Source: a bacterium (GTDB lineage: Bacteria > Bacteroidota > Ignavibacteria > SZUA-365). From it: 64,000 nucleotides of DNA. The notes beneath the pieces are model-generated. The model saw nothing but the letters and a program-made list of their open reading frames with translations. It was not told the origin of the DNA and did no database searches. Below, one piece after another: positions 4,123 through 6,699 of this stretch. The stretch is taken from the NCBI GenBank assembly GCA_020444325.1, contig JAHLLD010000013.1, positions 1 through 64,000 of the forward strand. The letters are read 5' to 3'. The number at the start of each line of letters is the position of its first letter. Position 1 is the first letter of the stretch. The translations under genes and the position numbers were made by a program.

Positions 4123-4147
4123 ATCTTTCGCCCTTCCCTGACCTTAC

Positions 4148-4191
4148 GACCAGGTCTTATCCATCCCACGGGTAAGACCTGGTCCATTTTT
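4148..4191 (+). terminator. Rho-independent terminator of ppdK
   Basis: A perfect 12-bp stem (GACCAGGTCTTA at 4148-4159 with its complement at 4173-4184) and a 13-base loop are followed by CATTTTT. It lies 26 bases after the ppdK stop codon. Confidence 0.9.
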
Positions 4192-4241
4192 ATGCACATT
4201 CTGCATAATCTCGCGCCTGGAATTATGCACTTTCTGCATAA
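4190..4241. promoter_or_regulatory. Twin palindromic operator-like sites
   Basis: Two copies of TTATGCA-N5-TGCATAA lie at 4190-4208 and 4223-4241. Each is a perfect 7-bp inverted repeat with a 5-base spacer; the spacers differ by one base. The copies are 33 bp apart, about three helical turns, so both would face the same side of the helix. They lie 140-190 bp upstream of the envelope protein at 4381 and right after the ppdK terminator. This geometry suits a dimeric regulator binding cooperatively; the regulator is unknown. Confidence 0.6.
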
Positions 4242-4280
4242 AGGTCGTTTTTCCGTCCCCTTGTAACAAAGCGGGGGGCT

Positions 4281-4311
4281 TTGCGTGTCTCTTCCGATGT
4301 GCCGGTACAAT
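4281..4311 (+). promoter_or_regulatory. Possible promoter for the 4381 gene
   Basis: TTGCGT (4281-4286) and TACAAT (4306-4311) are separated by 19 bases, resembling a sigma-70-type promoter about 70 bases before the start codon and 40 bases after the twin palindromes. No Bacteroidota-type TAnnTTTG box is present here. Confidence 0.3.
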
Positions 4312-4380
4312 GGCGGACGAAGCTCCGGAACTGCTGTCCGTCCCAACTGATTTTCCTACTCATAACATACTGGTATCCCG

Positions 4381-5031
4381 ATGCAAGCAATGAAAAGTCT
4401 CCTTTTCATCATGGGCGCGCTATGCCTGATCTCCACGCTCACGATGGCACAATCCGCGACCGTTCCCACACAACCGGAAGCCCCGCGTCCCACCATGCAG
4501 CAGGACGTTGACGCGACAGGACTGCTCTCGGGTCCCGCGGGCGGTCCCTCGATCGCATGGCACAATTTCCGGCAACATAGGTCAGCAAACGATATTGCAC
4601 CCGGACTCGTGGCGACGTGGGATCTCCCCATCCTCGACCTGGGTGAAGACGCGCAGCTCACCGTGCGTCCCGGACTCAGTTACCTCCACCCAACACTGCT
4701 CCTCGACGCCGTCATGCGCCTGCAGTACAGGGGCTACGGTGCCGTGATGGCGGGATTCAGCTTCGATCCCTCAGGCGATCAGGAATTCCGTTTCGAGGAA
4801 AACACACCCGAGTGGGAATGGATGAATGAACACGACAGTTTCGGCAAGCGCAGTTTCGCCGTACTTGGCGTGCAACTCCCGACCTCCTTCGCGTACTACG
4901 AATTTCTCTACCGCGTCCAACTGGAGAAAGGATCACAGGCCTATTACCTGGGTCCCGATCAGACAACCCGCCTGCGCATGGGTGTCCGTCGCTACTTCCT
5001 GCTCTCGGTGGGAATGGGAATCTGGCTGTGA
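4381..5031 (+). CDS. Secreted envelope protein, family not recognised
   Basis: This 216-residue protein has a signal peptide (hydrophobic LLFIMGALCLISTLTMA, cleavage near residue 23). A Pro/Gln-rich linker follows, and the mature part shows alternating hydrophobic strands with many aromatic residues and ends in a hydrophobic WL. The pattern suggests a small beta-rich or outer-membrane protein, but no family motif is recognised. An internal Met at codon 4 could also be the start. It stands alone, downstream of two palindromic operator-like sites and upstream of a terminator at 5146, so it is likely a separately regulated single-gene unit. Confidence 0.65.
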   Translation: MQAMKSLLFIMGALCLISTLTMAQSATVPTQPEAPRPTMQQDVDATGLLSGPAGGPSIAWHNFRQHRSANDIAPGLVATWDLPILDLGEDAQLTVRPGLSYLHPTLLLDAVMRLQYRGYGAVMAGFSFDPSGDQEFRFEENTPEWEWMNEHDSFGKRSFAVLGVQLPTSFAYYEFLYRVQLEKGSQAYYLGPDQTTRLRMGVRRYFLLSVGMGIWL

Positions 5032-5145
5032 CCTGCGCTATGGCTACGCCTGAGCGGGACGACCCGCTCCATGCTGATCGCTGAAGCTGCTCGGGCGTAC
5101 GGAGTATGGAACAATAGAAAAATGGAAGGATGGAAATATGACAAG

Positions 5146-5176
5146 GGGCACTCCTCACCCGGAGTGCCCTGATTTT
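5146..5176 (+). terminator. Rho-independent terminator
   Basis: A perfect 9-bp stem (GGGCACTCC at 5146-5154 with GGAGTGCCC at 5161-5169) is followed by TGATTTTT. It lies about 115 bases after the stop codon of the gene at 4381. Confidence 0.75.
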
Positions 5177-5251
5177 TACGGTCCCGGAAATGCCATTTCG
5201 CAACGTGCAGCCAGTTCCGATCCTTCGCGAAATAGGGCACGGCCCCCCCCC

Positions 5252-5282
5252 TGTTGACTTTTGTCAACACTTCAGACATATT
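5252..5282 (+). promoter_or_regulatory. Promoter with overlapping palindrome, toxin-antitoxin-like pair
   Basis: TTGACT (5254-5259) and CATATT (5277-5282), 17 bases apart, look like a sigma-70-type promoter. The -35 box lies inside a perfect palindrome, TGTTGAC-TTTT-GTCAACA (5252-5269), as expected for an autorepressor operator. A run of nine C residues (5243-5251) sits directly upstream. The first gene begins at 5295, so the transcript would have a very short leader. Confidence 0.5.
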
Positions 5283-5294
5283 AGGGATAACACA

Positions 5295-5534
5295 TTGCGT
5301 CCAAGGCACCCGAACAAAGAAGTCGAAGCGGCAATCCGTTTCGCCGAAAGCTGCGGGTGGCGATATCGCCACCCCGGGTCCTCAGCTCACGCATGGGGAT
5401 ACATGTACTGCCCGCTCGCTGCGGGCGAAGGTTGTAGATTGTCCGTCTGGTCCTCCCCACGCAATCCGGGTAATCACGCAAAACAGATATTGGCAAGAAT
5501 CAATGCATGCCCAGACACCGGAAGCAGAGTATGA
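5295..5534 (+). CDS. Small HicA-like protein, putative toxin
   Basis: This is a 79-residue protein if translation begins at TTG 5295, which has AGGGA seven bases upstream. Visible features are HPNKEVEAAIRFAESCGWR, the motif AHAWGYMYCP (His32, Cys39), VWSSPRNPGNHAKQI and a terminal Cys-Pro. From memory, this matches a widespread family of short uncharacterised proteins (K-E-hydrophobic helix, GW, HAWG, CP, STPRNP, HA). These are usually encoded just before an HTH protein like the one at 5531. Size, the central His and gene order recall HicA ribonuclease toxins, but that is inference. Its stop overlaps the downstream ATG (ATGA). The in-frame ATG at 5190 is upstream of the promoter and less likely. 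Confidence 0.6.
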   Translation: MRPRHPNKEVEAAIRFAESCGWRYRHPGSSAHAWGYMYCPLAAGEGCRLSVWSSPRNPGNHAKQILARINACPDTGSRV

Positions 5535-6040
5535 AGAAAAATTATTCGTTCACCCTTATTCTGGAATCCACTTTCGACGCCACTGAGGGTATCGAGGATG
5601 CCCTGTATGAATCAGGGTGCTCTGACGGACTGGTGTGGACGCGCAATGGATTCGTCTTTCTTGATTTCACACGGGAAGCGGTCTCCATGGAGGAAGCGGT
5701 CTCATCAGCAATTCAGAACATCGAAGGTAGCAGAATTGGTTTGTCGGTCGGAGGGATTGCGCCTGCGCCACTGGTGACACAGTCGATGATAGCTGAACGG
5801 CTTGGGGTATCGCGTGAAGCGGTTCGGCTCTGGTCAACGGGCAGGCGAGGTCGAGCCGCGTTCCCCGCTCCGGTCACCATTTCGGGCAAAGGTACCGCGT
5901 ACTGGGACTGGCTGAGCATTCTTCGATGGCGGGCCGCTGAAGGTGATTCGATCCCGGATGAGGAAATTGAAAAAGCCGAGACCCTCTCCAGGATCTCGAA
6001 TAAGCTGATATCACGACGACACGCACAGGTCGCGGGATAA
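5531..6040 (+). CDS. HTH DNA-binding protein, putative antitoxin
   Basis: This is a 169-residue protein from ATG 5531. Residues 1-75 form an alpha/beta domain (YSFTLILE, ALYESGC, VFLDFTREA, EEAVSSAIQNIE). A helix-turn-helix follows at about residues 83-102 (VTQSMIAERLGVSREAVRLW), then the family motif FPAPV and an Arg-rich C-terminal tail. This layout is typical of small regulators annotated only as DNA-binding protein. The ATG overlaps the TGA of the preceding gene and an AGAG lies just before, so translation is probably coupled. A role as antitoxin and autorepressor at the palindrome 5252-5269 is inferred. The gene converges on the lipocalin with a nine-base gap. An ATG at 5507 would extend it by eight residues. 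Confidence 0.65.
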   Translation: MKKNYSFTLILESTFDATEGIEDALYESGCSDGLVWTRNGFVFLDFTREAVSMEEAVSSAIQNIEGSRIGLSVGGIAPAPLVTQSMIAERLGVSREAVRLWSTGRRGRAAFPAPVTISGKGTAYWDWLSILRWRAAEGDSIPDEEIEKAETLSRISNKLISRRHAQVAG

Positions 6041-6049
6041 TGGCATCAA

Positions 6050-6574
6050 TCACCCCACGTCGGGACGGGAGATGAGCTTCGTTACGTCGAAGCCTTTCCG
6101 GGCGAGTTCCTGCTTGATGCGGTCGAGTGGCAGATAGTCCGGCTGCGGATCGCGCGCCATGATCCAGAGATATTCGCGGCTGGGAGTGCCGACAGCGACC
6201 CACTGGTACGCATCGTCCAGCATCAGAATCCAGTAATCCCCCTTGAACGGCCAGAAGAACGACACCTTCAGCTTCGCATTGTTGCTGCCTTCGACGACCC
6301 AGGCTTTGCCTTCGACATCATCGATCTCCCCGCCGACGCTGTCTTCCTCACAGCGGTTGATCACGCGCACCGTTTCGTCGTCGATGAGTGTGTACTCGGC
6401 GGTGGAGTTCCAGCAGTCCTCCTGAAACGAATTCGGCAGCCGCGCAATTTCATACCACTTGCCCGCATAGCGCTCAAGATCCACCCGCTCGACCGTCTCC
6501 AGCGGCGGATAGCTTCCCCCGCAGCCTGCAATGGCAATCATCGTCAGCGTCAATAGTACTGGTATTCTTTTCAT
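6050..6574 (-). CDS. blc: Bacterial lipocalin lipoprotein (Blc-like)
   Basis: This 174-residue protein has a lipoprotein signal peptide with lipobox IAGC (Cys18), so it is predicted to be membrane-anchored. The lipocalin signature YAGKWYEIARLPNSFQ (G-x-W) follows at about residues 36-51, then the usual barrel motifs (INRC, GKAWV, LKVSFFWPF, YWILMLDD, LWIMARDP). Length and motif order match Blc/apolipoprotein D-like proteins, which bind lipids or other hydrophobic ligands in the outer membrane. It is a single gene. An 8-bp tandem repeat (6609-6648) lies 35 bases upstream of its ATG and may affect its expression. Confidence 0.92.
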   Translation of the reverse strand: MKRIPVLLTLTMIAIAGCGGSYPPLETVERVDLERYAGKWYEIARLPNSFQEDCWNSTAEYTLIDDETVRVINRCEEDSVGGEIDDVEGKAWVVEGSNNAKLKVSFFWPFKGDYWILMLDDAYQWVAVGTPSREYLWIMARDPQPDYLPLDRIKQELARKGFDVTKLISRPDVG

Positions 6575-6608: not shown

Positions 6609-6648
6609 ATGGAAACATGGAAACATGGAAACATGGAAACATGGAAAT
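6609..6648. repeat. 8-bp tandem repeat upstream of the lipocalin
   Basis: Four perfect copies of ATGGAAAC and one ending in T run head to tail. On the minus strand, the lipocalin's coding strand, the unit reads GTTTCCAT. The array lies between the lipocalin start and a TATATTTC-like -7 box (about 6648-6655, minus strand), so copy-number change would alter the leader or promoter spacing. Confidence 0.9.
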
Positions 6649-6699
6649 ATAACATCGCGGTGCTATTTCCATGCTTCTATCCTTCCATTTTTCCATCCC

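Follow-up and report, generated by a model that had tools for sequence, protein, structure and literature searches.

Two translationally coupled genes behind a conserved operator palindrome: a probable self-regulated toxin-antitoxin module resembling HicAB

The window, as we call the whole 64,000-nucleotide stretch of bacterial DNA analysed here, carries two small adjoining genes, A and B, in an accessory segment that separates a PPDK gene from a convergent lipocalin gene (Table 1). The original prediction of a 79-residue protein followed by a 169-residue one was borne out in all particulars: both coordinates agree and the ATGA overlap is present. ATG 5190 was considered as another start for A and rejected, because the operator described below would then become coding sequence and because the relatives start at the equivalent of 5295. 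Slippage had also been suggested for a run of nine C residues (5243-5251). The run is the sole one in the window; relatives carry no such run, so no role is seen for it, and the idea was abandoned as a general feature.

Table 1. Features of the A-B locus, in window coordinates
Feature	Position	Strand	Remarks
Accessory segment, PPDK gene to lipocalin gene	4123..6068	.	216-aa gene and A-B inside; delimited by flank spacing compared with relatives
Terminator-like hairpin between the upstream gene and the pair	5145..5170	+	10-bp stem followed by a T run
Operator palindrome TGTTGAC-TTTT-GTCAACA	5252..5269	.	type TTGACA-N2-TGTCAA, over the -35 box; sequence and footprint
Predicted sigma70-type promoter TTGACT-N17-CATATT	5254..5282	+	TTGACT 5254-5259, 17 bp, CATATT 5277-5282; 9/12 consensus matches; consensus match only
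Gene A, 79-aa HicA-like putative toxin	5295..5534	+	TTG start, TGA stop; PADLOC PDC-M06A, phrog_5923
ATGA stop/start overlap of A and B (translational coupling)	5531..5534	+	sequence
Gene B, 169-aa putative antitoxin and autorepressor	5531..6040	+	ATG start, TAA stop; PADLOC PDC-M06B, phrog_2620
Domains of B	residues 1-79; residues 80-140		predicted; ferredoxin-like partner domain; AlpA/MerR-like winged HTH

Tandem octamers ATGGAARN occur at 5106-5139, 6609-6650 and 6663-6697 (inverted) and flank the A-B pair together with the lipocalin gene. The genome (4.65 Mb) contains ATGGAARNATGGAARNAT 40 times and its backward control not once, and the octamers are therefore a dispersed repeat family. 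The 216-aa gene (4381-5031) has no Pfam match beyond chance. Relatives of it are found across the family, other members of the genus included, and the same genome holds a paralogue at C16:42097-42606. This paralogue has a copy of the repeat on each side (C16:41162 and 42923), and the 216-aa gene of the window has the repeat downstream.

The palindrome that had been predicted over the -35 box is there, with perfect 7-bp arms. Taken alone it is unremarkable: the 64 kb contain 16 palindromes in which arms of 7 bp or more enclose a 4-base loop, and about 6% of shuffled 160-nt stretches include one as good. The promoter match is likewise weak alone, since this sole sigma70-like site between 3000 and 8000 compares with 2.0 expected in shuffled sequences. 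The consensus -10 box ends 12 nt before the TTG of A so that, by consensus matching, the leader of the A-B mRNA would be very short (a few bases). The palindrome stands out from chance because it recurs in the same position before A across phyla. One of two patterns, TTGTCA-N2-TGACAA or TTGACA-N2-TGTCAA, is found with at most one mismatch in 35 of 49 regions upstream of A (exactly in 25) but in only 2 of 2,998 equally long control windows elsewhere in the same loci. This phylogenetic footprint strengthens the idea of an operator over the promoter and suggests that the pair is autoregulated. The type found in the window is shared by two relatives from the same phylum (L080 and L082), and TTGACNNNNGTCAA is found twice in the genome, the window operator being one of the two sites. 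Both types contain TTGACA, so each would put a repressor over the -35 box. In three cyanobacterial loci (L015, L018 and L020) A is preceded by a pair of palindromes spaced about 50 nt from each other, which suggests cooperative binding.

The two operator types follow the recognition helix of B. TTGTCA-N2-TGACAA accompanies helices RQN or RQALQ and TTGACA-N2-TGTCAA accompanies all others (21:0 versus 0:19; Fisher p 8e-12, a value not to be read as a probability since the tree needs one switch). Because a single switch on the A tree is enough, this pairing is consistent with B reading the operator and is not independent proof of it. Loci in which the partner of A lacks the HTH (L076, L081 and L083) show no close operator match (3, 5 and 6 mismatches). 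However, as evidence tied to loss of the HTH this is weak, because L079, L084 and the SSU5-type L086 keep the HTH and yet have 3-5 mismatches to either type. L079 carries a different palindrome, GTTTAC-N4-GTAAAC, at the operator place.

The AlphaFold model of A, built with 24 aligned members, is alpha-beta-beta-beta-alpha (H-E-E-E-H, pLDDT 84.8). With Foldseek against the PDB nothing was found at E <= 0.001 and HicA was not among the top 50; in the PDB comparison HicA surfaced only on VIA-align re-ranking. There the chains 5yrz_B, 6g26_F, 4p78_C and 6hpb_A (HicA of S. pneumoniae, of B. pseudomallei, of a HicA3-HicB3 entry and of E. coli) hold ranks 1, 2, 3 and 5 with Z of 5.4, 5.3, 4.7 and 4.3, a Z of 5 being below the level where a fold match is secure alone. 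Beneath them, at Z of about 4, lie fragments of unrelated aminotransferases. Foldseek matches of A among viral models include phage proteins named HicA-like. Aligned by hhalign to a profile of HicA members of the phylum, the A profile scores 19.7 (p 0.004; maximum over 300 column shuffles 15.4), with helix 1 and a W/F position in register and H32 of A placed on the GSH histidine of HicA. A HicA/dsRBD-like fold, as the original prediction anticipated, was thus recovered by the model, VIA-align, the viral Foldseek search and the profile comparison, which together lend moderate support to the HicA-fold prediction and to a relationship of A with HicA. Pfam HicA_toxin (PF07927) matches none of the 24 A members at E <= 1, the A of the window has no match among Pfam and NCBIfam models, a PDB sequence search with the A profile returned nothing meaningful, and a scan of IMG/VR with A found no relative.

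Conserved positions in A are H32, W34, C39, C47, T54-P55 and C72, with S54 in the window's protein. The motifs AHAWGYMYCP and STPRNP highlighted at the outset do form the conserved core of the family; the second reads SSPRNP in the window and STPRNP in relatives. H32 is kept in 23 of the 24 aligned members and, being in register with the catalytic histidine of HicA, is a candidate catalytic residue.

Within the original 24-member alignment C39, C47 and C72 hardly vary; a possible fourth ligand changes place among the relatives. Among 45 distinct A sequences (two of them, L023 and L024, with a His in a plain-length loop, were classed by eye), those with a short strand 2-3 loop have a CxH following in 17 of 18 cases, while those with an extra loop ligand, either in an enlarged loop CPYNDxECRCGxFC or in an EHxxH loop, have it in 0 of 27. 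The single exception is the A of the window, which reads CPD and lacks the CxH that would complete the predicted site in the 17 other plain-loop relatives. The EHxxH loop marks the phage-plasmid branch, and the two forms with an extra loop ligand sit in separate parts of the tree. This pattern suggests a probable metal site of four ligands in A, the fourth of which has been swapped: a CxH after helix 2, a Cys in the enlarged strand 2-3 loop, or the His pair of the phage-plasmid forms. A tetrahedral site, probably for zinc, is the simplest reading. We know of no metal site in HicA.

B is modelled as a beta-alpha-beta-beta-alpha-beta domain followed by a winged HTH (pLDDT 85.6). VIA-align places residues 80-140 next to 7lwr_A and 6amk_B (BldC), among small winged HTH proteins of the terminase-small-subunit/BldC type, and residues 1-79 next to ferredoxin-like folds; HicB is not listed among the neighbours. 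The partner domain does not score above shuffles against a HicB profile, which had only three rows, and no HicB model stands among the Pfam matches listed for 22 B members. The window's B gives only weak matches to HTH models in Pfam and NCBIfam, and a PDB sequence search with the B profile only weak ones to the winged HTH of AlpA, excisionase and terminase small subunit. In a Pseudomonadales MAG (L008, 4291-5484) B is apparently fused in frame to an extra C-terminal part of about 230 aa, giving an ORF of 397 aa. The genome that carries the window has PF07927 (HicA) matches at C1:502498-502677 and C4:1683-1859, and no match to PF15919 (HicB) anywhere.

Co-inheritance of the two genes had been proposed as a check and is found from cyanobacteria to enterobacterial phage-plasmids. 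Forty-nine loci extend 600 nt or more beyond A; in 46 of them B directly follows, starting at most 250 nt after the end of A. Two of the three exceptions (L081 and L083) have a shorter partner without the HTH; in the third (L025) A is disrupted and B present. The clearest HTH-less partner is that of L076, which is among the 46 and scores 28.6 bits against a model of the N-terminal domain. The partner in L081 is weak (12.0 bits versus 11.4 for the best shuffle) and that in L083 contains an in-frame stop.

Relatives of A are found in cyanobacteria, in alpha-, beta- and gammaproteobacteria, and in Myxococcota, Binatota and Planctomycetota. A is also present on hundreds of plasmids (242 records), mostly elements of about 110 kb of the SSU5/pLF82 type. 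Of 5,426 complete E. coli genomes 110 have the pair, always on plasmids. A Klebsiella aerogenes locus (L098, LR134127.1, 4007-4819) holds the pair between a "cell division inhibitor" and an acetyltransferase gene; the record is labelled as a plasmid, though the genes around the pair are of chromosome type. In the window's own phylum the pair occurs in 7 of 395 genomes and in its family in 1 of 12, the window's own. The PPDK and lipocalin matches are 1,947 bp apart here versus 207 and 271 bp in two genomes of the same genus, so that the accessory segment exceeds its counterpart in relatives by about 1.7 kb. Since the pair is missing there and the segment is extra, the pair is accessory and was probably gained here horizontally, either jointly with the 216-aa gene or beside it. 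Loss in the relatives could also account for this distribution.

Judged from sequence, the pair shows the general features of type II toxin-antitoxin systems: it is small, bicistronic, coupled and co-inherited, and it appears to be autoregulated. We consider it probable (roughly 70%) that A-B is a self-regulated, horizontally mobile type II module working like HicAB. A would be a small toxin of HicA fold, probably cutting or binding RNA through the conserved H32 and stiffened by a bound metal. The N-terminal ferredoxin-like domain of B would bind and neutralise A, and its C-terminal winged HTH, placed on the palindrome over the -35 box, would repress the operon alone or as an A-B complex. The ATGA coupling would tie production of B to that of A. 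Loss of B, through shut-down of host synthesis by a phage or loss of the carrier replicon, would then free A and growth would stop. More tentatively, and with rather less than even confidence, the pair may represent a separate toxin-antitoxin superfamily in which a metal-stabilised HicA-fold toxin is joined to a ferredoxin-like antidote domain unrelated to HicB, the DNA-binding part is optional, and the fourth metal ligand has moved on two or more occasions.

PADLOC-DB identifies A as PDC-M06A (E 4.1e-24) and B as PDC-M06B (E 3.1e-23), in adjacent genes and over nearly their whole length. With no difference found, the pair is by these profile matches a member of PDC-M06 and hence a catalogued phage-defence candidate, for which PADLOC states no mechanism. 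A literature search found neither a paper naming PDC-M06 nor an anti-phage test of the candidate. This listing is one reason to consider a two-gene anti-phage system in which A would be an effector or sensor acting on phage RNA without arresting growth and B its regulator; carriage by phage-plasmids, which compete with other phages, and a few defence-like neighbours (such as Fic, mad3/mad6, PD-T4-6 and AbiEi) are others. We regard this as unlikely. The neighbours in 24 sampled genome loci are mostly housekeeping genes and do not make a defence island, a setting that was considered and rejected. Gene order, coupling and autoregulation also suit a toxin-antitoxin module. The two readings overlap, since such a module may itself act in defence.

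Slightly less likely again is that B is an AlpA/excisionase-like regulator of a mobile element and A a small non-toxic modulator. The labels point that way: B matches phrog_2620 (2e-31), called "excisionase and transcriptional regulator", and one record names it "putative phage transcriptional regulator AlpA", in keeping with its AlpA/terminase-small-subunit/BldC-like winged HTH, while A matches phrog_5923 (2e-17), which has no function given. However, many copies are surrounded by housekeeping genes, where there is no element for B to regulate, and the genome holds the operator pattern at just one further place. The almost invariant HicA-like histidine is moreover kept by A and not by B, and partners without an HTH still accompany A. 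The TTG start of A, its lack of a Pfam match and its absence from relatives might suggest two ORFs paired by chance or the remains of a decayed locus. This reading is extremely improbable, being refuted by homologues of A and B that keep their order across many phyla, by the strength of the PADLOC matches and by the intact operator.

The toxin-antitoxin reading of A-B would supply PDC-M06, a defence candidate for which no mechanism was found, with a candidate catalytic residue, an antidote domain and an operator. As Enterobacteriaceae harbour the pair on SSU5-type phage-plasmids, it may bear on the persistence of these elements and on their exclusion of other phages. In Cyrano (pLF82), such a phage-plasmid of E. 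coli, the pair is listed among the morons (PMC9928086), and CYRAN_51 and CYRAN_50 were annotated in 2023 as "HicA toxin protein" and "putative antitoxin HicB". These are annotations only, and we found no functional test of the two genes. They belong to the same two families as the window pair, with the same order and operator type, at 44% (A) and 38% (B) identity; the possible metal ligands of A are C-H-H-C in Cyrano and C-C-C in the window. The original statement that both families are annotated only as hypothetical and DNA-binding proteins is mostly right, the Cyrano and PADLOC labels being the exceptions.

Among known systems the closest likeness is to HicAB of Gerdes class 3, in which hicA comes first and HicB has a C-terminal HTH (PMC10865869). 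The pair shares with it the toxin-first order, the close genes, the C-terminal HTH of the antitoxin and the palindromic operator at the promoter, as well as a small alpha-beta-beta-beta-alpha toxin with its histidine in register. HicAB also has a form without the DNA-binding domain (class 1; PMC10865869), and so does this family, in L076 and probably in L081 and L083. The proposal of a HicAB-like type II module is thus sustained by fold, co-occurrence and operator. It does not extend to the Pfam HicA and HicB models, which match neither protein of the window, or to the partner domain of B, predicted as ferredoxin-like (beta-alpha-beta-beta-alpha-beta) where HicB has a partial RNase H fold; the probable metal site of A is a further difference. 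Because the Pfam tests failed and the antitoxin fold looks different, the pair is not filed as HicAB, and the name is used here for likeness, with no claim of membership. A-B would be a variant of a kind of system that is already known, the new elements being the putative metal site of the toxin, the predicted ferredoxin-like antidote and the optional DNA-binding domain. If this is true, the HicA fold has been combined with at least two kinds of antitoxin fold.
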